This document shows, piece after piece, positions 9,921-56,303 of a stretch of DNA of 64,000 nt. Both the position numbers and the translations under genes were made by a program. Position 1 is the first letter of the stretch. Each line of letters begins with the position of its first letter. Below the pieces are notes generated by a model, which was not told the DNA's origin, searched no databases, and worked only from the letters and a program-made list of their open reading frames with translations. The DNA is from Entomobacter blattae (GTDB lineage Bacteria > Pseudomonadota > Alphaproteobacteria > Acetobacterales > Acetobacteraceae), in contig NZ_CP060244.1 of the NCBI RefSeq assembly GCF_014672835.1, forward strand, positions 2,411,001-2,475,000. The letters run 5' to 3'.

Positions 9921-11303
9921 ATGAACGACCCATCTCCACAGCTTCACCAACAGGCACCTGCCGAGGTATCTTTATCTGCCATTAGGAAAACTGCCTTAAG
10001 CAGTTCCTTTGGCAGTGCGTTGGAATATTACGACTTTGCTCTTTTTAGCCTAGCAGCTGCCCTTGTTTTTAAGCCTCTTTATTTTAATTTTCCAAAATGG
10101 GGTATTGTCTTTACCATGGCAACTTATGCCCTGGGCTTTGTTGTTCGCCCGCTTGGTGGGATTATCTTCGGCTATATCGGAGACAGAGTGGGCCGAAAAA
10201 CGGTTCTGGTTTCTACCATTACCCTTATGGGGCTTTCTACCGCTTGCATTGGCATAATTCCTACCTCGCAACAAATTGGATTATGGGCACCTGCCTTACT
10301 CATTTTCCTGCGTATCCTGAATGGTCTTGGTGCAGGAGCAGATCAAGCAGGGGCTGCTATTTTGATGACTGAGCTCTCACCAAAATCAAAACGTGGCTTT
10401 TATGCTTCTCTTCCCTTTATGGGAATCCAGATTGGTACTGTAGCAGCTTCTCTTCTATTTCACTTTCTTTTTAATAACTATTCTGCCGAAGTTGTGGTTT
10501 CTGGTGGTTATTGGCGTATCCCTTTTGTAGGAAGCTTGCTTATCCTGGTTGTTGCACTTTACCTACGTCTCACCATGAAAGAATCCCCTGTCTTCGAGAA
10601 AGCCCAAATCAGTAAAAAAGAACCGCTTTCCCTAAGCCAGCTTCTGGTTACATCCAAAAGAACCTTGCTCCGGGGTATTGGGTTGCGCCTTGCCGAAAAT
10701 GGTGGATCTTCTATCTATCAGGTTCTTGCCCTTTCCTTCATTGTGGAACAAGTCCACACTTCCAAAGATACCGGGGCTCTATCCTTGGTTCTAGCAGCTA
10801 TCGTGGGAGCCTGTATCGTTCCCATTGCTGGAACACTGACAGATAAATTTGGGCGTGTAAAAGTCTATCGGGCGTTTGCGATCATGCAATTTATTACTGC
10901 CCTGCCCGCTTGGTGGCTATTTACCCTTAACAACCATATTATTACCTTTATGACCCTAAGCTTTGTGCTTGGCTGTGCAACATGGGGAATGTTTGGCGCT
11001 CAAGGGGCCTTTATTCCAGAAATGTTTGGAAGCCGCGCCCGGTATACTGGCGTTTCAGTTGCCCGAGAAGCTTCAGCCGTTATCGCCGGTGGGATAGCCC
11101 CCCTCGTTGGAAGCCTTATTATCCACTATACAGGCCAAATGACAGGCCACCCAATATTGGCTTGGGTTCCAATTGCCCTTTATCTCATGATCTTGGGCGC
11201 CTTTACCATCTACACAACATTTCAAATTCCAGAAGTTGCCCAAAGGGATCTTAGTGATCCCAGAGATGCGATCGACGCACCAGATAGCCTGATAAAAATC
11301 TAA
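9921..11303 (+). CDS. MFS transporter, metabolite:H+ symporter (MHS) type
   Basis: A 460-residue inner-membrane proton symporter with about 12 hydrophobic segments. It carries the MHS/MFS hallmark GYIGDRVGRKTVL between helices 2 and 3, and a second copy-like motif DKFGRVKVY in the C-terminal half. The N-terminal SSFGSALEYYDFALFSLAAA is characteristic of the MHS family, which imports organic acids, betaines and related compounds. It lies divergent from the LacI-hydratase-dehydrogenase unit, so its substrate is probably a hydroxy or keto acid handled by those enzymes. A perfect-stem terminator follows at 11314-11341. Confidence 0.88.
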   Translation: MNDPSPQLHQQAPAEVSLSAIRKTALSSSFGSALEYYDFALFSLAAALVFKPLYFNFPKWGIVFTMATYALGFVVRPLGGIIFGYIGDRVGRKTVLVSTITLMGLSTACIGIIPTSQQIGLWAPALLIFLRILNGLGAGADQAGAAILMTELSPKSKRGFYASLPFMGIQIGTVAASLLFHFLFNNYSAEVVVSGGYWRIPFVGSLLILVVALYLRLTMKESPVFEKAQISKKEPLSLSQLLVTSKRTLLRGIGLRLAENGGSSIYQVLALSFIVEQVHTSKDTGALSLVLAAIVGACIVPIAGTLTDKFGRVKVYRAFAIMQFITALPAWWLFTLNNHIITFMTLSFVLGCATWGMFGAQGAFIPEMFGSRARYTGVSVAREASAVIAGGIAPLVGSLIIHYTGQMTGHPILAWVPIALYLMILGAFTIYTTFQIPEVAQRDLSDPRDAIDAPDSLIKI

Positions 11304-47673: not shown

Positions 47674-47723
47674 GTGGGATAAATCCACATATATTGTCAA
47701 TAAGAAATGTGGGTAAATTCCAC
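47674..47723 (-). promoter_or_regulatory. Leftward early promoter with two operators (PL/OL-like)
   Basis: Two 15-bp operators, GTGGGATAAATCCAC (47674-47688) and GTGGGTAAATTCCAC (47709-47723), flank a minus-strand TTGACA (-35) at 47700-47695. An 18-base spacer gives CACAAT as -10, so the first operator lies in the spacer region. The third copy is at 48164-48178 in the rightward promoter. This is the arrangement of a lambda-type PL with repressor sites; binding by the 47723-48145 repressor is inferred. Bases 47467-47673 contain no supported gene. Confidence 0.65.
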
Positions 47724-48145
47724 TATTTTTTTTCTATTTTGGAATTTTCGGCTATTTCACTACGTTTTAAAAGCAAATGAAGATAAGCATCAGCCTCATC
47801 TTCGGGTATTTTTCTAAAAGCGGCTAAAAGTAATTTTTCCTTTGTATTTAATCCATTGTCGGCTGAAATACCTTTTGTTATCCAATCTAACGAAACATTA
47901 AAATATGTAGACACAGCCATAAGAATCTCCCTACTAGGAAGATCAGCACCTGTTTCTATTTTTGTGAGGTGCGATCTGGAGATTCCAATTTCTGTTGCAA
48001 GTTCAACTTGAGTCATCCCTGATTCTTTTCTCAGAGACCGAATTCTCTCGCCTGTATTATTACCAGAATTTTGTAGAGATACATTGTCCATCATACTAGC
48101 AATGTTGAACAATTTTTCTTTTCTTTGAGTTATTCCATCCCACAT
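47723..48145 (-). CDS. Phage repressor, XRE family (CI-like)
   Basis: A Cro/CI-type repressor. The helix-turn-helix is ERIRSLRKESGMTQVELATE followed by IGISRSHLTKIETGADLP. The C-terminal part (LLLAAFRKIPEDEADAYLHL) is a short helical oligomerisation tail without a LexA-like protease domain, so induction would need a partner rather than self-cleavage. The frame reaches 48262, but those residues run across the rightward promoter; starts at 48145 (MWDGITQ) or 48094 (MMDNVS) are more plausible. It diverges from the Cro/YdaS-like gene, as in lambda. Confidence 0.85.
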   Translation of the reverse strand: MWDGITQRKEKLFNIASMMDNVSLQNSGNNTGERIRSLRKESGMTQVELATEIGISRSHLTKIETGADLPSREILMAVSTYFNVSLDWITKGISADNGLNTKEKLLLAAFRKIPEDEADAYLHLLLKRSEIAENSKIEKK

Positions 48146-48187: not shown

Positions 48188-48397
48188 ATGATGAATACAA
48201 AAGAAATTATTCGAGCAGCGGGTGGCCCTAGCAAGGTAGCAAGAGCTGTTGACCGGCATCATTCCACAGTCTGTAAGTGGGATTTTGTTCCAGGGAAATT
48301 TGTAAGAATAGTTTCAGAGCTATCTAAAATACCTCCTGAAACTATTCGCCCGGACATATTTCAGACCACACCAACCCACGAGGAACTACAGAGATGA
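48188..48397 (+). CDS. Cro/YdaS-like DNA-binding protein
   Basis: A 69-residue regulator. EIIRAAGGPSKVARAVDRHH with STVCKWDFVP is the YdaS/Cro-type helix-turn-helix, and the C-terminal IPPETIRPDIF is the family's usual ending. It starts the rightward early operon opposite the repressor and should act as the Cro-like antagonist. Its last 4 bases overlap the next gene (ATGA). Two later copies of the RPDIF tail (49015 and 49764) show that pieces of this gene were duplicated downstream. Confidence 0.85.
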   Translation: MMNTKEIIRAAGGPSKVARAVDRHHSTVCKWDFVPGKFVRIVSELSKIPPETIRPDIFQTTPTHEELQR

Positions 48398-48597
48398 GTG
48401 AAAGAATGAAAAAAGCCACTAATTACCGTAATGTTGTTATACGTGCTTTTAGCCATGTTTTAGTAGCCTCTGATAGCAGTTTTGATGCTGCCATGCTTAA
48501 ATTTATTGAATGGGGAGAAAGAAACAAAACCTTTTTCCTTCCACCAGAATTGGTGTCAGATGATGAAGATCGCCCGTTAAATAACTGGCCAGATTAA
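48394..48597 (+). CDS. Small hypothetical protein, module 1
   Basis: A 67-residue protein (MSERMKKATNYRNVVIRAFS) translationally coupled to the Cro-like gene by ATGA overlap. Mixed basic and acidic, soluble. It meets the convergent DUF3892 gene tail to tail with 4 bases of overlap. Unknown function; possibly the YdaT-like partner of the Cro/YdaS gene by position only. Confidence 0.65.
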   Translation: MSERMKKATNYRNVVIRAFSHVLVASDSSFDAAMLKFIEWGERNKTFFLPPELVSDDEDRPLNNWPD

Positions 48598-48905
48598 AAC
48601 TCTGGTAGGTTTCCTAAATTGTCTTCTTCTTTTTTATTGCTGTCTGTTCGAAGATATTTCTTACCATTGACGACAACAACGGAAACCTTAGCCCCTTCTA
48701 CCCATTCTCCGCTCTCGTCCTGATAAGCCGTAGCATAAGTAAGATTTTTGTTTTCTATTGCGTTTACTATAGCATTTTTTGTTCTTACTTCTGAATCACC
48801 TAGCTTATCTCCAAGATCCTCACAGCGCTTAACAGAATGAATATGTTTATCAGAAGAATTATACCGAACTGCAACAATGATGTATTTAGCCCATTTTTCG
48901 GACAT
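48594..48905 (-). CDS. DUF3892-family protein, module 1
   Basis: A 103-residue protein that begins WAKYIIVAVRYNSSDKHIHS and contains a central NAIENKNLTYATAYQDESG, which fits the DUF3892 family of unknown function. It runs against the rightward operon. Immediately upstream of it is a 73-bp element (48911-48983) that recurs before the third module's minus-strand gene, so it is probably its own promoter or control region. It likely represents a moron-type, lysogenically expressed gene. Confidence 0.7.
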   Translation of the reverse strand: MSEKWAKYIIVAVRYNSSDKHIHSVKRCEDLGDKLGDSEVRTKNAIVNAIENKNLTYATAYQDESGEWVEGAKVSVVVVNGKKYLRTDSNKKEEDNLGNLPEF

Positions 48906-48910
48906 ACAGG

Positions 48911-48983
48911 TTTCCTTTTTACTGAGCAGTTTAAGGGAAAGGGTAAGAGAAGTTTTACGGGCATCTCTTACCCAATTGTTAAC
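48911..48983 (-). repeat. 73-bp control-region repeat, copy 1
   Basis: The stretch from TTTCCTTTTTACTGAG to TTGTTAACT is repeated with high identity at 50495-50567. Inside is an inverted repeat, GGGTAAGAGA (48941-48950) and TCTCTTACCC (48964-48973), with a 13-base loop. Both copies sit 5 bases upstream of a minus-strand gene start, suggesting a shared promoter/operator cassette. Confidence 0.8.
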
Positions 48984-49014
48984 TTATAGCATCAATCCGT
49001 GGTGGGGGCAGCTT

Positions 49015-49056
49015 CGCCCAGACATATTTAGTCAACCCCAGCAGAAGGAGAGTTGA
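49015..49056 (+). pseudogene. Cro/YdaS C-terminal remnant, copy 2
   Basis: The frame reads RPDIFSQPQQKES then stop, matching the ending RPDIFQTTPTHEELQR of the intact Cro-like gene (48188-48397), and it lies in the same position relative to the next small rightward gene. The N-terminal DNA-binding part is missing. It is a duplication or recombination scar at the start of module 2. Confidence 0.6.
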
Positions 49057-49060
49057 GAGA

Positions 49061-49354
49061 ATGAACGAAGGCCGACAGCATGCTTTCCCTTTGGAGGTAT
49101 GGTTTGACACCAACAAGACTTTTGAAAGCTGTATTTATGCTGCTTTTGCCGCTTTGTCGTTTCCGGAAGAGAGTTTTTGGTGTGTGATGAAAAACGGGCA
49201 TTATGTCTTCTTTACTTATTTGGGAAAAATTAAAAATCGGAGAGTTTTCCAATCCACGAGAATATGTCAGGAATCTGACTTAAGCCCTGAGATATTAAAG
49301 ACGGCAATTGCGCTTCTAGGACCTTTTGGGGGAGGTGCTTCAAATGGGCTTTAA
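49061..49354 (+). CDS. Hypothetical protein, module 2
   Basis: A 97-residue protein (PLEVWFDTNKTFESCIYAAF and FWCVMKNGHYVFFTYLGKIK) preceded by AAGGAG. It follows the Cro-tail remnant just as the 67-residue gene follows the intact cro. Its 3' third overlaps the 3' end of the convergent gene (49230-49739) by 125 bases. Family unknown. Confidence 0.6.
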   Translation: MNEGRQHAFPLEVWFDTNKTFESCIYAAFAALSFPEESFWCVMKNGHYVFFTYLGKIKNRRVFQSTRICQESDLSPEILKTAIALLGPFGGGASNGL

Positions 49355-49739
49355 ACGAGTTTTTCTCTCTTTCCGTAGCATTAGAAGCCTCAATCTGTGC
49401 TTCAATCAGTGCACGAATAGTTTCGCCAGCTATGGTAATGGTAAATGTTTTGTTGGTAGCAGTTATACCACCCCAATGAGAAAGATAATCCAGGCCAGCA
49501 ACAGTAAGATGCATGGGTGTACCATGAAGCCATCTATTGTCTATGGTTCTCCTGAGAACATTATTGGCCAAATCATGGTTGATAATATATGCCAAATGCT
49601 GAAAATTTTCTTCTGTTGGTTCCATATCTTTTTCGAAAAGACTGTATTGGTAGTCGCTTCGGTTTTCCTTCATCAAGTTCATCATTTTCAAAACAATTTC
49701 TTCGTCCGGAAATTCAGTTTTATTTTCAATGTCTACCAT
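49230..49739 (-). CDS. Phage winged-helix-like protein, module 2
   Basis: A 169-residue protein of a common but unnamed phage type: N-terminal helical/winged part with HLTVAGLDYLSHWGGITATN, then a TITIAGETIRALIEAQIEAS helix pair and C-terminal helices. Its C-terminal 70 residues are alignable with the 49977-50489 product (ETIRKILLEKVLQSNLTENE), so they are paralogues. It opposes the rightward operon. Function unknown; its position suggests a lysogeny-expressed accessory gene. Confidence 0.7.
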   Translation of the reverse strand: MVDIENKTEFPDEEIVLKMMNLMKENRSDYQYSLFEKDMEPTEENFQHLAYIINHDLANNVLRRTIDNRWLHGTPMHLTVAGLDYLSHWGGITATNKTFTITIAGETIRALIEAQIEASNATEREKNSFKAHLKHLPQKVLEAQLPSLISQGLSQIPDIFSWIGKLSDF

Positions 49740-49763
49740 TTTTTATTCTTACGATTAATTGTT

Positions 49764-49805
49764 TGCCCGGACATATTCCAACAGCCAACTCAAAAAGAGA
49801 TATAA
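49764..49805 (+). pseudogene. Cro/YdaS C-terminal remnant, copy 3
   Basis: Reads CPDIFQQPTQKEI then stop, again matching the RPDIF... tail of the Cro-like gene, 2 bases before the ATG of the next small rightward gene. It marks the start of module 3 and begins right after the 5' end of the module 2 minus-strand gene. Confidence 0.6.
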
Positions 49806-49807
49806 GG

Positions 49808-50116
49808 ATGATAATTACTGATATGTGGTTTGATTATTATGGCGGCGATGAAAAAATATCTAAATGGCGTGTTAGCTCCTCTTTTGGAGACCTTAAAATA
49901 ATACCTGATTTTTTCTGGACGCATTTACTTGTTGGTGAGCAAAGTTTTTTCATAAAATTTTCTTCTATTGCTTGGGTTAGGGGTGAAAAAATATTTGAAG
50001 CCACTGAGATAAATCCGAAAGGGATGGGAATTGATCAATTCCTCTCTTTACCAATTCAGTTAACAGGTTCGTCAGGACCTGATCCGAAGCTTTTTTCAAG
50101 CAAGTCAAGAGAGTAG
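49808..50116 (+). CDS. Hypothetical protein, module 3
   Basis: A 102-residue protein (MIITDMWFDYYGGDEKISKW, then FGDLKIIPDFFWTHLLVGEQ). The open frame extends upstream to 49589, but the ATG at 49808 comes directly after the remnant's stop with AAGG before it, as in modules 1 and 2. Its last 140 bases overlap the convergent gene at 49977. Family unknown. Confidence 0.55.
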   Translation: MIITDMWFDYYGGDEKISKWRVSSSFGDLKIIPDFFWTHLLVGEQSFFIKFSSIAWVRGEKIFEATEINPKGMGIDQFLSLPIQLTGSSGPDPKLFSSKSRE

Positions 50117-50489
50117 ATTTTTCATTTTCAGTAAGGTTGCTTTGTAAAACCTTTTCTAAAAGAATTTTTCGGATTGTTTCTTCATGAAGTTTTACAGTTA
50201 TAATTTTAAGTGCTGCGGCAATGCCCCCATCAGGAGCAATAAGGTCAATACCATCTTTGGTAATGACACTTTCGTAGACTGGTTCGAAGCCTCTGCCCTT
50301 TGGAAAAACTCCACTTTTGCACAAACCGGACTCTTCAAGATAGAGCAAGTCTGCAACCAAGTGATCAATTTTTTCCTGATCTTTAAAAATATCCAAGCCA
50401 GAGAAAAAGAACACGCCATTTGGATAAGCTTCCAAAAGAATCTGCAAAATCTGAAGTTGGTGCTCTCTCCTATCATTAATATCAGACAT
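49977..50489 (-). CDS. Phage winged-helix-like protein, module 3
   Basis: A 170-residue paralogue of the module 2 minus-strand protein. The N-terminal part is a winged-helix-like domain (LQILQILLEAYPNGVFFFSG, VADLLYLEESGLCKSG) followed by ITKDGIDLIAPDGGIAAALK and the shared C-terminal EETIRKILLEKVLQSNLTEN region. It is preceded by the 73-bp repeat (50495-50567). Such proteins are frequent in phages near immunity regions. The exact role is unknown. Confidence 0.7.
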   Translation of the reverse strand: MSDINDRREHQLQILQILLEAYPNGVFFFSGLDIFKDQEKIDHLVADLLYLEESGLCKSGVFPKGRGFEPVYESVITKDGIDLIAPDGGIAAALKIITVKLHEETIRKILLEKVLQSNLTENEKSTLLTCLKKASDQVLTNLLTELVKRGIDQFPSLSDLSQWLQIFFHP

Positions 50490-50494
50490 AAGAG

Positions 50495-50567
50495 TTTCCT
50501 TTTACTGAGTAGTTTGAAGGAAAGGGTAAGAGAGGTTTTGCGGGCATCTCTTACCCAGTTGTTAACT
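50495..50567 (-). repeat. 73-bp control-region repeat, copy 2
   Basis: Second copy of the element at 48911-48983, with GGGTAAGAGA at 50524-50533 and TCTCTTACCC at 50547-50556. It sits 5 bases upstream of the module 3 minus-strand gene. Confidence 0.8.
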
Positions 50568-50645: not shown

Positions 50646-51332
50646 ATGGCAGGGCGTTCCAAACATTTTGTTGGTGAAGTCATTAACGGGTTCCGCCTGA
50701 AGGGCAATGTTTCCTGTGGACGGTGGACTGTTGAATGCACAGAATGTGGGTATAGCCATGATTGGGCAGCAGGCAGGCTTGACAGGAAGATTTGCCTGAA
50801 CTGTCACCCGACAGAAGACAGACGTGGAAGTCCTCGGAGATTTTATGGCCCTGGGGATGCCCTTAACGGGCGTGTCCTCATTGAACGCCTGAGTAATAAT
50901 AAATGGCGGAACCGGTGTGAAGCATGCGGCAGAGAGACAGAACGCCACCTTAGTTCTCTCAGGGCCAGTAGCTGCCCCTGTTCACAACGACGTATCAGTA
51001 AAGACAGTAACAATGGTAGAGACCTGATTGATTATACGGGAAAAACTGTTGGCTCTTACCTGGTTTCTGCTATGGGAGAGTCTTACCTGGGTGGCTTTAC
51101 ATGGACAGCCACCTGCCAGAAATGTGGCATCACCCGCACGGCTCCCATTAGCAGCTTAAATCAGACATGTACAAACTGCTCCAAAATAGAATACGAAAGT
51201 GCCCTTAACACATTAAGAGTCAACTACACCACGGGCCTGCAAGGTCAGCAATTAGTGGAATACAGGCGGTATGTGGCCTGTCATTTCTCGGAAAGGGAAG
51301 CGCGTAACAGAGCGCTCCAGGTGCAGCCATGA
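50646..51332 (+). CDS. Triple zinc-ribbon phage protein
   Basis: A 228-residue protein built of three tandem repeats of about 55 residues. Each has the pattern G-x-x-[IVL]-x-x-[FRY]-x-[LV], a Trp, CxxCG and a second CxxC pair: WTVECTECGYSHDW...CLNC, WRNRCEACGRETERHL...CPC, and WTATCQKCGITRTAPI...CTNC. These are likely zinc ribbons binding DNA, RNA or protein. The C-terminal 45 residues are helical and basic. It overlaps the next gene by ATGA. The family name is unknown to me. Confidence 0.75.
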   Translation: MAGRSKHFVGEVINGFRLKGNVSCGRWTVECTECGYSHDWAAGRLDRKICLNCHPTEDRRGSPRRFYGPGDALNGRVLIERLSNNKWRNRCEACGRETERHLSSLRASSCPCSQRRISKDSNNGRDLIDYTGKTVGSYLVSAMGESYLGGFTWTATCQKCGITRTAPISSLNQTCTNCSKIEYESALNTLRVNYTTGLQGQQLVEYRRYVACHFSEREARNRALQVQP

Positions 51333-51832
51333 GTGAGCGTGAGCAGCTAAGGCGTGCGTGCAAAACATTAACCACTGTAGCAATTGACGAATGCGGTGGG
51401 CTGGATGCTACACGCTGCCTATTAGGAGTTGGGCAATCTACCTTAAGCGAATACCGACTACCTCATACGAGCAAGGTGGTACCTGTTGATACGGCCATAT
51501 TGTTAGACCAACAGACAGAGCACCCCTATTTTTTACAGTTGATGGCCCGTGAACTGAATATGGGAATTATCCCCATTGTTCCCCAGAAGGGCATTTTGGG
51601 TAAAACAATTGGTGAGATCTCTCGCCTGTCCTCTGAAGCTATTTCAACCAGCGTGGAAGCTATGGCTGATGGTGTGTACGAGATTAAAGAAATTGAAGAT
51701 ATGGAACAGCATTTTCACAGGCTTTTAACTGTGCTGGAGCGCGGTATCGGGATTTTAAACCGAAAACGCCTGGATATGCGCGAACGTGGCCTGACCAGGA
51801 TTGCTGTTCATGATAAGGGGGAATGCCCATGA
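51329..51832 (+). CDS. Phage regulatory/replication-accessory protein
   Basis: A 167-residue protein. The N-terminal part (AIDECGGLDATRCLLGVGQS followed by TLSEYRLPHTSKVVPVDTAI) resembles a lambda-repressor-like helix-turn-helix, with a helical C-terminus (MEQHFHRLLTVLERGIGILN). The gene is coupled to the zinc-ribbon gene before it and to the replication gene after it (the latter overlaps by 4 bases from the ATG at 51829). By position it may be a CII-like activator or replication accessory factor. Confidence 0.6.
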   Translation: MSEREQLRRACKTLTTVAIDECGGLDATRCLLGVGQSTLSEYRLPHTSKVVPVDTAILLDQQTEHPYFLQLMARELNMGIIPIVPQKGILGKTIGEISRLSSEAISTSVEAMADGVYEIKEIEDMEQHFHRLLTVLERGIGILNRKRLDMRERGLTRIAVHDKGECP

Positions 51833-52863
51833 GGGGAGATGCAGCCCTTTTACGCTTTGCCCAGAGCGATCTGGTTTTTAACCTGGTCTCAGACAGTGCG
51901 CGGCGGTTATGGAGTGATATAGCCTGTTTTTTAAACAGTAAAAACCTTACTACTCTGCCGTCTGCCTATGCCAGCCAAATAGATACATTGTTTGAGCGCA
52001 GACGAACACTGACCCCCCTGGTGGATGAGCTGATCACTTATGACCTGTTAACCCGCGGGGAAAACGGATGCCTGATATGCCCTTATCTGGTTGAGCAGGC
52101 AGAAAAACGAAACTTACGGAAAGCCAGGAAGCAGGAAAAGCAGGCCCGCCTAACCCAACTGATTGAAACTGGCCAACTGCAAGCGGGTGATGATTTACGC
52201 ACCATTACCAGCCGCGCTAACGGTAAAAAAGGTGGCCGCCCTAAAAAGCAGATCAAGGGCCAAGGTTATATGATGATGCCTATACAGGGGAATAAACAGG
52301 CTGGCCAAAAAGAAAATACCCAGGAAGAGAATGCAAAAAACCTAAATAACCTAAACCAAAACCTAAATTCAGAATTAGGTTATTTAGGTTTCCCCTCTAA
52401 GACTAAGCCTAAGAATAATAATATTATTATAAATAACTCTAAGACTCAGACTGAAACCCACGAAAACCTAACTCAAAACCTAAACATACCCCAGGACGTT
52501 TTGATGGCCACAACTCTAAAAACAGTTGAGGCGGCCAATTTTGAAGACAGAAGCGAAAAATTCGTTCAAGACCAGATTGGCATGGTCTGCAAGCTCATGA
52601 AAAAGGGAATAGACGCTGAAACTATTATTGAGGGTGCAAAAATTACCGCTGAAAAAATGGCCAGGCAAGGTAAAAGGCCGCACCATATGGGTGGGTGTGA
52701 AAGAGAGATTTACGCGCTTCACACATTGAAGGTTGGGCAAGGTTTGCTGGGGACTGCCAAGAGCGCAGCATCACCCCCAAAAAGCTACTGCGAGGTGATG
52801 TATGAGCAGATCAGGGACAGGGAAATTCAGAAGTTTGAGGCCAACCGTAGCTACAGACCATAA
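51829..52863 (+). CDS. O-like phage replication initiator with internal origin
   Basis: A protein of about 344 residues. The N-terminal 90 residues are a winged-helix-like DNA-binding domain (TTLPSAYASQIDTLFERRRT with LVDELITYDLLTRGENGCLI). A charged helical linker and a low-complexity Asn/Leu/Gln segment follow, encoded by the iteron array (52338-52484). A C-terminal helical domain (GMVCKLMKKGIDAETIIEGA) is probably for helicase recruitment. The layout (DNA-binding domain, iteron-coding linker, C-terminal loader domain) is that of lambda O. No helicase-loader gene is seen next to it. Confidence 0.65.
   Translation: MRGDAALLRFAQSDLVFNLVSDSARRLWSDIACFLNSKNLTTLPSAYASQIDTLFERRRTLTPLVDELITYDLLTRGENGCLICPYLVEQAEKRNLRKARKQEKQARLTQLIETGQLQAGDDLRTITSRANGKKGGRPKKQIKGQGYMMMPIQGNKQAGQKENTQEENAKNLNNLNQNLNSELGYLGFPSKTKPKNNNIIINNSKTQTETHENLTQNLNIPQDVLMATTLKTVEAANFEDRSEKFVQDQIGMVCKLMKKGIDAETIIEGAKITAEKMARQGKRPHHMGGCEREIYALHTLKVGQGLLGTAKSAASPPKSYCEVMYEQIRDREIQKFEANRSYRP
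52338..52484 (+). other. Putative phage replication origin: AACCTAAA iterons and AT-rich element
   Basis: AACCTAAA-type units occur at 52339, 52348, 52360, 52465 (AACCTAAC) and 52477, with two inverted copies at 52374-52381 and 52383-52390. A 17-bp inverted repeat pairs 52338-52354 with 52375-52391. Between the two groups lies an AT-only stretch (52413-52436, AATAATAATATTATTATAAA) that could melt. All are inside the replication gene, as in lambda ori. Confidence 0.7.
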
Positions 52864-52962
52864 ATTCCTGATAAGGAAGAATTCCTCAAACAAAATGCCC
52901 ATATAAAAGGCCCGGAAGATAACCCATACCTGAAACAGGAAGAAACACACGTGGCATAGATC

Positions 52963-53104
52963 GCTCCACGGTGGAGCATCGGTAAAATGGGGGTACGCAA
53001 AACGTACACCCGCCCCACCGTGGGGAGGGGGCCATGCCCCTTAAAGGGGTGGCAAAACTTTCCACCCCCACAAATTAAAGCATTTACCTGTTCCACGGTG
53101 GAAC
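52963..53104. repeat. Palindrome family with CCAC-G-GTGG core
   Basis: GCTCCACGGTGGAGC (52963-52977), CCCCACCGTGGGG (53013-53025) and GTTCCACGGTGGAAC (53090-53104) are perfect odd palindromes sharing the core CCAC-G-GTGG. A fourth, longer copy (53528-53548) lies inside the antirepressor gene. They occupy the 262 bases between the replication gene and the ash-like gene, which hold no other gene. They may be operators or a dispersed palindromic element. Confidence 0.7.
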
Positions 53105-53125
53105 GGGTTCATACAGGAGGCAAAC

Positions 53126-53350
53126 ATGAAAAGCTTGACAAAATGGAACGGGTTTTCTAGCGTAATAGGCACTAGAAGTATAGAGCGGTTTCCGCACCCG
53201 AGAGCATTGCGGCTTTTTTATGCCTGTATGATTTTTCATGCCGGGTGGAGAAGCGGAAATAAAAGACCTGAAAAGGGAATACCGTTCGGAGCCTCTTTGT
53301 ACGCTCTAGTTGACACCCGGCGCCAGCTACTAACTGACGCTGTAAACTAA
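53126..53350 (+). CDS. Ash/Icd-like small phage protein
   Basis: A 74-residue protein with a perfect AGGAGG 6 bases upstream of the ATG. The segment FPHPRALRLFYACMIFHAGW recalls small phage proteins annotated as Ash or Icd-like (host-division-inhibitor related), which carry an H-P-R-A and F-x-x-C-M-x-F pattern. The family link is by eye and moderately sure. It precedes the antirepressor gene by 20 bases. Confidence 0.6.
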   Translation: MKSLTKWNGFSSVIGTRSIERFPHPRALRLFYACMIFHAGWRSGNKRPEKGIPFGASLYALVDTRRQLLTDAVN

Positions 53351-53370
53351 AAGTTACAAAGGAAATAATC

Positions 53371-54087
53371 ATGGCACAATTTAATCCTGTTGCTATTACA
53401 CCCGTAATGCATAATGGCGAAGTCCGAATTTTAGATGTTGATCTTGCTAAAAGGTTGGGGTTTGAAAAAGCTACTAAAATTAGAGAGCTAATCAAAAGAC
53501 ATACAAATAATTTGGAGAAGATGGGACCCCTCCCCACGGTGGGGAGGGTTATAAACGGCGGCAAAGCTAGAGAATTTTACCTTAACCGCAAGCAGGCCAT
53601 TTTCATAACGGCCAAATCTGAAACACCAGAAGCTACAGACATTACTATTGAAATTATTGAACGGTTTGATGCCTATGAACGTAATGAGCGCTCCTCTTAT
53701 TACATTCCAAAAGATTACTCTTCTGCGCTTCGTCTTGCTGCTGAACAGGAAGACTTAATTCAGCAACTTTCCCCCAAAGCTACAGCCTACATGCGCATAG
53801 CTGATGCAGAGGGTAGCTTTTGCTTAACAGATGCCGCCAAAACTCTACAGGTTAAACGCATTGATCTGATTAACTGGCTGCAAAAAGAGCACTGGATTTA
53901 CCGCCGTGTGGGCAATAAGAACTGGTTGGCTTATCAGGACAAGCTGGCCAGCGGCTGCCTTATCCATAAAATAGCTGATTTGGGCACCGATAGTGAAGGG
54001 TTTGACCGGATCAGGGAGCAGGTGCGTATTACCGCCAAGGGCCTGACCAAGATCAGCGAAAAATTTTCTCCATTTGCCATCAATTAA
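53371..54087 (+). CDS. Phage antirepressor-like protein
   Basis: A 238-residue protein. The N-terminal part VDLAKRLGFEKATKIRELIK with FYLNRKQAIFITAKSETPEA and IIERFDAYER is a phage-regulatory (antirepressor-type) domain. The C-terminal part FCLTDAAKTLQVKRIDLINW, with LQKEHWIYRR and AKGLTKISEKF, is the KilA-C/ANT domain. Such proteins interfere with repressors or host regulators. A long palindrome of the CCACGGTGG type (53528-53548) encodes the GPLPTVGR stretch in the middle. AAAGGAAA precedes the start. Confidence 0.85.
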   Translation: MAQFNPVAITPVMHNGEVRILDVDLAKRLGFEKATKIRELIKRHTNNLEKMGPLPTVGRVINGGKAREFYLNRKQAIFITAKSETPEATDITIEIIERFDAYERNERSSYYIPKDYSSALRLAAEQEDLIQQLSPKATAYMRIADAEGSFCLTDAAKTLQVKRIDLINWLQKEHWIYRRVGNKNWLAYQDKLASGCLIHKIADLGTDSEGFDRIREQVRITAKGLTKISEKFSPFAIN

Positions 54088-55668: not shown

Positions 55669-55935
55669 TCAGTAATGATACCGGCACTGGATAATTTCGA
55701 CCTGTTGCGTTTCCCTGGTGCCGGTTACACGATACACCAGGCGGTGCTCCTTGGTAATGCGACGAGACCACCAACCAGAAAGCTGACCTTTTAGCGCTTC
55801 AGGCTTGCCAAGGCCTATAAAAGGATGGCGGCGGGTATCTTCTACCAGCGTGTTCACTTTTGCCAGCATGGCATGGTCATGAGAAGCCCAATAGAGATAG
55901 TCTTCCCAGCCTGTTTCAGTGAACACAACTTTCAT
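55669..55935 (-). CDS. yoeB: YoeB-family mRNA-interferase toxin
   Basis: An 88-residue ribosome-dependent endoribonuclease. The RelE/YoeB fold residues are visible: the catalytic Glu in KPEALKGQLSGWWSRRIT, the Arg in the following SRRITKEHRLVYRV, and the C-terminal His-Tyr in IIQCRYHY. It overlaps the antitoxin gene by 4 bases, the normal order (antitoxin first). Probably stabilises the prophage or defends it. Confidence 0.95.
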   Translation of the reverse strand: MKVVFTETGWEDYLYWASHDHAMLAKVNTLVEDTRRHPFIGLGKPEALKGQLSGWWSRRITKEHRLVYRVTGTRETQQVEIIQCRYHY

Positions 55936-56210
55936 GAGTTGGAAGCTGTATCGTCTGGGGTGATGAGTGTGTGCTCTTCAAGCTTGCCCTGGCTGGCCTG
56001 CTCAATCCCTTTGAGTAGCCGTTGTGTGTTTTTAGGACTATTGAGCAGATGAACTGTTTCCTGCAGGCCGGAGAACTCTTCTTCTGAGAGGATGACCACA
56101 TTCTGGTGGGCAGATGTGCGTGTTACCACAATAGGGGCACGGCTATTGGCTGCTTCATCCAGGTAATGAGCAAGGTTTTTTCGCAAGTCAGTATAAGATA
56201 CGTGAGTCAT
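55932..56210 (-). CDS. yefM: YefM-family antitoxin
   Basis: A Phd/YefM antitoxin and autorepressor of about 92 residues. The N-terminal DNA-binding part is MTHVSYTDLRKNLAHYLDEA with the IVVTRTSAHQNVVILSEEEF strand-helix, and the disordered C-terminus (KGIEQASQGKLEEHTLITPD) neutralises YoeB. The ATG at 56210 is preferred to those at 56216-56219. Its upstream region overlaps the recombinase half-site cluster. Confidence 0.93.
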   Translation of the reverse strand: MTHVSYTDLRKNLAHYLDEAANSRAPIVVTRTSAHQNVVILSEEEFSGLQETVHLLNSPKNTQRLLKGIEQASQGKLEEHTLITPDDTASNS

Positions 56211-56303
56211 GATCATCATCTCCTTGTTGTTAATATAAAGTACTTGTTTCTGTACTTCAAGGAAGAAAGAACAGCTTAAAAAAACTGTCCTGATAATGAA
56301 GAG

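Follow-up and report, generated by a model that had tools for sequence, protein, structure and literature searches.

Accessory gene modules behind cro in an Entomobacter blattae prophage and their exchange at the 3′ end of cro in relatives

The 64,000-nucleotide (nt) stretch of Entomobacter blattae DNA analysed here (positions 2,411,001 to 2,475,000 of contig NZ_CP060244.1; hereafter the window, in whose numbering coordinates are given) carries a prophage immunity region. In this region, an intact Cro/YdaS-like gene (cro) is followed by three modules, each consisting of a small rightward gene and a convergent gene on the opposite strand, and the 3′ end of cro recurs as an orphan tail before the second and the third. 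We find that modules have been exchanged at the 3′ end of cro in relatives and, by analogy, exchange is likely in the window itself. Modules 2 and 3 represent one newly described pair, in two old copies that have since diverged. In this pair a predicted winged-helix phrog_3983 gene and a small gene have common 3′ ends; we denote the small genes the FWx family and the unit the FWx/phrog_3983 convergent pair, both names being defined in this analysis. We propose that the 3′ end of cro is a point at which accessory modules are exchanged and stacked, an account that we consider probable as a whole, with the roles in expression and exclusion set out below.

Exchange is evident in 25 viral contigs near the P. 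aeruginosa phage YMC11/07/P54. In these contigs the pair forms a single cluster with at least 92.3% identity, and the region beyond the 5′ end of the small gene, which holds the immunity genes, falls into six unrelated clusters. When contigs of different type are paired, identity drops from about 86–98% to about 42–78% at +200 to +250 nt, not far from the predicted start of the small gene. The cro genes of two of the six upstream types are recognised by sequence.

A second body of evidence comes from the Komagataeibacter group, in which the genomes G134 and G633, K. xylinus (locus L220) and N. hansenii (L046) combine differently a module P, a DUF4145 module A, a gene B, a module N and an FWx module. 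Across the five joints that we profiled, identity switches between background and 79–92% at the cro-end sequence: at four joints the left side is near background and the right side is shared, and at the fifth (G134/G633, behind module P) the left side is shared and the right is not. Segment identities are 79% for P, 82% for A (first 462 aligned nt), 92% for B, 83% for N and 87% for FWx, and the cro ends shared at the joints measure 18–42 nt. G134 carries three copies of the final 21 nt of its cro, at spacings of 488 and 430 nt; the second copy is 81% and the third 100% identical, and the copies run into an ATGA start. Searching 14 genomes for an 18-nt cro end with at most two mismatches gave 31 matches in 11 of them, against one match for the reversed pattern. 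Two or more copies within 1.1 kb were found in G134, G633 and G733 (3 of the 14, all among the nine genomes of genus g60); the remaining matches are scattered. The orphan tail in G633 equals 41 of the last 42 nt of cro in K. xylinus, and behind it comes the same DUF4145 module that K. xylinus has downstream of its cro; a different gene, helix-turn-helix-like by eye and unmatched by the cro profile, stands upstream. This tail is the end of another prophage's cro, with that prophage's module behind it, which excludes plain duplication for that joint.

The sequence-only reading that preceded this work had suggested exchange or duplication at the 3′ end of cro. Its exchange half is borne out in relatives by the five joints and by the six immunity types that share one module, and what follows cro does vary between related prophages rather than being a fixed set of genes. 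Other convergent genes can fill the same slot: minus-strand genes lie directly behind cro in L066 (7337–8473) and in L054. Some of these slot genes resemble DUF4145 by eye, the Pfam match having been tested only for the K. xylinus one.

In the window, cro (48188–48397, + strand) is the first gene of the rightward early operon and matches phrog_35 (E = 8e-9), with YdaS and P22_Cro matches both under the Pfam cut-off; relatives at 27–59% identity occur in 38 other genomes of the 249 searched in the same family. Its genuine 3′ end, running into the start of the next gene, is tail 1 (48345–48410, +). Tail 2 (49013–49070, +) comprises an orphan cro 3′ end, a Shine–Dalgarno (SD)-like stretch and the start of the gene g5, and tail 3 (49762–49807, +) is an orphan cro 3′ end directly before the gene g7. 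The orphan peptides are RPDIFSQPQQKES (49015–49056) and CPDIFQQPTQKEI (49764–49805), each followed by a small plus-strand gene and a convergent minus-strand gene, exactly as the sequence-only reading had placed them, and the core common to the tails is TTYGCCCRGACATATT. As that reading also anticipated, the tails align as DNA: tail 1 scores 32 against tail 2 and 29 against tail 3, and neither score is reached by any of 2000 shuffles, nor by any of the 2816 other 90-bp stretches obtained by stepping along both strands of the 64 kb in increments of 45. In a DNA comparison of 30 cro loci, only G134 (42), the window (31) and L062 (31) beat every control (29 and 27). L055 (27), L046 and L220 (26 each) do not, and it is the joint profiling that supports L220. 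L055 (G000:C1:363955-364164) is a second cro of the window's own genome, with a replication-type gene directly behind it and no module.

The three modules share one layout, as had been proposed, but not one gene content. Module 1 consists of g3 (48394–48597, +), an open reading frame whose start overlaps the cro stop (ATGA), and g4 (48594–48905, −), a DUF3892 protein gene (DUF3892, E = 3e-15; phrog_32719, E = 2e-25). The g3 product has no Pfam family, matches phrog_19174 only at E = 0.04 and stays below 0 bits with either FWx profile. Modules 2 and 3, by contrast with module 1, share a single pair type. They comprise the FWx genes g5 (49061–49354, +) and g7 (49808–50116, +), found by leave-out profiles at E = 7e-8 and E = 1.5e-10 (g7 also by tblastn to G241, E = 3e-5), and the convergent phrog_3983 genes g6 (49230–49739, −; E = 2e-20) and g8 (49977–50489, −; E = 7e-32), both of which match the phrog_3983 profile over most of the protein. 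Module 1 differs in kind: it belongs to a different family, and its genes overlap by 4 nt rather than by the 125 nt of g5/g6 and the 140 nt of g7/g8. At the DNA level, the alignment scores of g5/g7 and of g6/g8 fall within those of shuffles; lacking significant similarity, modules 2 and 3 do not stem from a recent duplication.

The FWx family is supported by profiles. One from which g5 and g7 were left out, so that it rests on the nine other Acetobacteraceae sequences, recovers both (the best of 2000 shuffled decoys reached 0.08), and when each of all 11 members is left out singly it is recovered at E = 2e-4 or better, the best decoys lying at 0.03–0.24. Convergent overlap occurs in g5/g6, g7/g8, G213, G009 and G241, always in phase 2. 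In G213 and G009 the overlapping pair immediately follows cro, and in G241 it is a neighbour of CI; the phrog_3983 copy is interrupted in G213 and is matched in its last part only in G009.

The pair probably extends beyond the Acetobacteraceae. Seven phage and plasmid phrog_3983 proteins, used as queries against viral contigs, yielded 427 confirmed relatives; the best 80 of these were combined with 14 other loci. From this set we dropped 25 near-identical loci, a locus cut off by a contig end and a locus with a truncated gene. We then counted antisense open frames that cross the 3′ end of the phrog_3983 gene and extend 60 nt or more to each side of it. Such a frame is open in phase 2 at 52 of the 67 loci and in the other phases at 13 and 11; the 67 include G241 and still contain some near-duplicates. 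In modules 2 and 3 the phrog_3983 gene lies on the minus strand; its 3′ end is shared with a small gene that converges on it, in a phase that is usually the same across loci. The non-overlapping parts of its two genes have correlated distances (rho 0.39, reached in 0 of 2000 permutations, 41 pairs).

Outside the overlap, purifying selection acts on the phage small gene in the more diverged pairs. Nonsynonymous (dN) and synonymous (dS) distances were computed for 19 pairs of phage, not Acetobacteraceae, small genes: dN and dS are 0.09 and 0.96 for L133/L156 and 0.09 and 1.28 for L129/L150, and L143/L161 has a dN of 0.24 with saturated dS. The signal is weaker among close alleles related to P. 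aeruginosa phages, where dN/dS is only about 0.5–0.85, and L130/L140 has a dN of 0.77 and a dS of 0.86. Inside the overlap, where both strands are coding, dN in the small-gene frame often reaches the level of dS, and this carries no information on selection.

The small gene is absent from the annotation of the records checked and has no firm match in the family databases scanned. For 36 small proteins, the scan gave no Pfam match at E = 0.01 and a single PHROG match, that of g7 (E = 0.007). Its frame has no annotated coding sequence (CDS) in any of the eight named records checked (AbIPP1, YMC11/07/P54, D14P, PhiR49_2, GF-2, Attikon1, the Stenotrophomonas plasmid and YMC/01/01/P52), the Attikon1 record having a shorter CDS on that strand in another frame, nor is a CDS annotated at that place in one RefSeq E. 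coli copy. An apparent two-gene unit in many phages is thus read as one gene without an assigned function. The Acetobacteraceae and phage small genes match each other weakly (hhalign probability 29%, single-comparison E = 6e-4), and the phage small-gene profile finds none of the 11 Acetobacteraceae members at better than E = 0.002; their shared position and phase make a link likely.

Among 385 genomes of the class, a small minority of them from the same family, that of the window is the only one that the phrog_3983 profile matches; a seven-member profile matches 28 of 397 genomes in the family, a count not comparable with the 385-genome set. DUF2513 is matched by 9 of 47 aligned phrog_3983 relatives (best E = 4e-5). 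Separately, weakly scoring, divergent genes resembling phrog_3983 occur at the loci L212–L215, in several genomes of genera g60 and g73; no FWx hit lies close to them, and they may form their own branch of the family.

The predicted structure of g8 (mean predicted local distance difference test score (pLDDT) 80.5, 47 sequences) has a winged helix over residues 1–93, followed by a helical part. It gives MarR/PadR-like matches (best Z 8.0, 69 residues, 2.9 Å; many rows tied) that barely cover the helical part, and the modelled winged helix suggests DNA binding. For g7, the model is an uncertain five-stranded sheet (pLDDT 65.6) with no Foldseek match at E < 1, too weak for a statement on its fold.

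A further repeated element, which the sequence-only reading had not mentioned, lies directly upstream of two of the minus-strand genes. A 73-nt leader repeat, 89% identical between its copies, precedes g4 (48912–48984) and g8 (50495–50567). It holds a perfect 10-bp inverted repeat, GGGTAAGAGA-13-TCTCTTACCC, 34–35 nt before the start codons (35 nt for g4, 34 nt for g8), which none of 60 shuffles reaches, and the leader core occurs only in these two copies in the whole genome at up to two mismatches. The unrelated prophage in G651 (L210) has an independent two-module row between cro and a CII-like gene, and both of its minus-strand genes follow a common 66-nt leader (80%). The inverted repeat in that leader is not the one seen in the window; one of its copies is perfect and the other carries a single mismatch. 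Across 77 sequences, inverted repeats precede the start codon at p ≤ 0.05 in 14, among them the g4 leader and a neighbour-gene leader in G651; none is found at this threshold before g6. It is possible that the proteins bind their own leaders, though not as a general rule.

These data suggest how such rows might arise. A module would consist of a small gene of the early operon, with its start codon in or beside the cro end, and an opposite-strand gene read towards cro. Recombination between the cro ends of different phages would place the donor's module behind that of the recipient, leaving the donor's cro end as a scar at the joint, and repeated rounds would yield the three-module row of the window. 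A phage annealing recombinase may carry out the exchange. An excerpt of PMC3945230 gives minimal pairing lengths of 23–27 for Red-beta and 31–34 for RecA; the shared ends of 18–42 nt are close to these lengths, the shortest lying below both, which makes such a recombinase plausible. Once joined, the small gene would come under the early promoter with its start intact, and the minus-strand gene would face the early transcript. The minus-strand genes would then be made in the lysogen and the plus-strand genes after induction, convergent transcription and shared 3′ ends would make the products mutually exclusive, and the modules would perhaps serve superinfection exclusion or tuning of the switch. 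For this expression pattern and function we would not claim better than a tentative standing, and we think them more apt to be wrong than right.

Several observations weigh against this account. Tails 2 and 3 score 22 against each other, which 12 of 2000 shuffles and 18 of the 2816 stretches equal or exceed, and taken by itself this comparison is weak. No donor or close relative of the window region appeared in annotated phages or in single-protein scans of viral and genome contigs, the searched set containing one genome of Entomobacter's genus. The sequence-only reading had named joints at RPDIF-type tails in other phages as support, and among 29 cro loci such orphan tails were found in the window only: the stop-limited peptide [RC]P[DE][IVL][FY] occurs twice within 3 kb downstream of cro in the window, in none of the 28 other loci (some near-identical) and nowhere on the opposite strand of all 29. 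This search missed the Komagataeibacter-group arrays because barely more than the last 18–21 nt of cro may remain there; they came to light in the comparison of DNA. The row in G651 repeats its leader and not a cro tail. Genes of phrog_3983 also lie away from cro, for example beside terminase or tail genes, and among their nearest upstream neighbours 6 of 30 scanned match the cro-like phrog_35 (31 were chosen and one over-long one was dropped). The phase-2 frame is lacking in 15 of the 67 loci, and FWx occurs without a phrog_3983 hit in the G134 and K. xylinus stretches, so the two families are not always together. Finally, among ten proteins submitted to PADLOC, only g8 matches, weakly, a Type I specificity model (E = 9e-4, 16 bits).

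An alternative, which we consider rather unlikely, is that FWx/phrog_3983 pairs are toxin–antitoxin or defence genes for which the cro site is merely a convenient carrier. Small paired genes do occur at several prophage sites, and the similarly laid-out locus of phage Fc02 excludes superinfecting phages: according to an excerpt of PMC9936078, gene 10, right after the cro equivalent (ner), is overlapped by the opposite-strand genes olg1-olg2, which are transcribed in the lysogen, and the products of gene 10 and olg1 each exclude phages. As far as that excerpt goes, Fc02 resembles the modules in having the gene right after the cro equivalent overlapped from the opposite strand, and differs in that the overlap is complete there and 3′ only here. 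Phage B3, of the same family, matched neither profile in its first 13 kb (Fc02 itself was not compared). Fc02 is a precedent for the layout, with exclusion activity on both strands and no homology seen with its relative B3. Against this alternative, the genes of the pair lie on opposite strands and not in one operon, PADLOC gives no convincing hit, and structure matches point to a winged helix in g8, those of g7 giving no information.

Less probable still, in our view, is that the tails were kept for translational coupling, that is, for the next gene's ribosome site and start, with recombination taking any site that preserved them. The tails do lead into a stretch that looks SD-like by eye and into a start codon, and in the Komagataeibacter group the ATGA overlaps the cro stop. 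However, the likeness continues upstream of the SD-like stretch, in the window as GCCC(G/A)GACATATT and in G633 over 41 of 42 nt that code for the C terminus of another Cro. The remaining possibility, that the cro-end/module unit was copied in place twice by tandem duplication and then diverged with no phage exchange, is improbable: although g5/g7 and g6/g8 are paralogues and g4 and g8 have a leader repeat in common, the tails align as DNA and the genes no longer do, module 1 is of another family, g6 is nearer to the G213 copy (41%, 162 amino acids) than it is to g8 (34%, 89 amino acids; identities, not a tree), the G633 orphan tail is another prophage's cro end, and none of the loci examined has two phrog_3983 genes, the double hit in L211 looking like one gene split in frame. 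The duplication half of the earlier suggestion is therefore not supported as the main process.

Exchange and stacking at the cro end can be set beside known forms of phage variation. Morons and other accessory lysogeny genes are extra genes that lie opposite the operon strand and vary between relatives; here, in contrast, each opposing gene is paired with an early-operon gene, which overlaps it in modules 2 and 3. The genes g6 and g8 belong by profile to the phrog_3983/DUF2513-like winged-helix proteins, a family to which PHROGs assigns no function, but the partner gene that overlaps them is without a Pfam match and has no firm match in PHROGs. Module exchange at short conserved boundary sequences is a model stated in an excerpt of PMC3233612. 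As in that model, recombination at a short shared sequence between genes swaps whole modules and the joints lie at gene boundaries; unlike it, the boundary here is the coding end of cro, which travels with the modules, so that rows accumulate and scars can be counted. The switch of identity at a short shared sequence between non-homologous neighbours is seen in the Komagataeibacter-group joints and the 25 contigs and is not demonstrable in the window. Searches of open-access literature, judged by titles and abstract openings, turned up no description of the FWx/phrog_3983 pair or of arrays of cro ends.

It has long been asked whether targeted exchange at short boundary sequences gives rise to phage mosaics, or whether segments join at random and selection then filters the products. 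Here the boundary sequence travels with the modules, so that one can count events and in some cases trace donors by their scars, and this brings the question within reach of a direct test. A wider reading would make the 3′ end of cro a dedicated capture point at which phages of acetic acid bacteria collect opposed lysogenic/lytic pairs in rows, and would make FWx/phrog_3983 an antisense-coupled two-protein switch, spread through proteobacterial phages, in which mutual exclusion is forced by the shared 3′ ends; it is conceivable, and we are inclined to doubt it.

The remaining genes of the immunity region flank the modules. A CI-type helix-turn-helix repressor gene (lysogeny; 47723–48091, −; HTH_3, E = 6e-17; phrog_8, E = 5e-20) precedes cro. 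After the module array come a zinc-ribbon-like early gene (50646–51332, +; Zn_Tnp_IS91 below its cut-off) and a gene for a CII-like activator (51329–51832, +; phrog_101, E = 1e-9). Consensus promoters numbered seven, compared with 7.7 expected. A CI/Cro operator-like palindrome, its pattern taken from two sites beside CI and cro (47673 and 48163), is absent from the modules; a palindrome one mismatch away from these sites lies 37 kb distant at 10742–10758, perhaps a host site bound by a prophage regulator. At 52851–53564, the peptide LPTVGR recurs in three open reading frames on both strands, one within an antirepressor-like gene at 53371, suggesting a short repeated or palindromic element. 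Two overlapping minus-strand open reading frames at 55669–56219 have translations that, by eye, look like a YoeB/YefM toxin–antitoxin pair.

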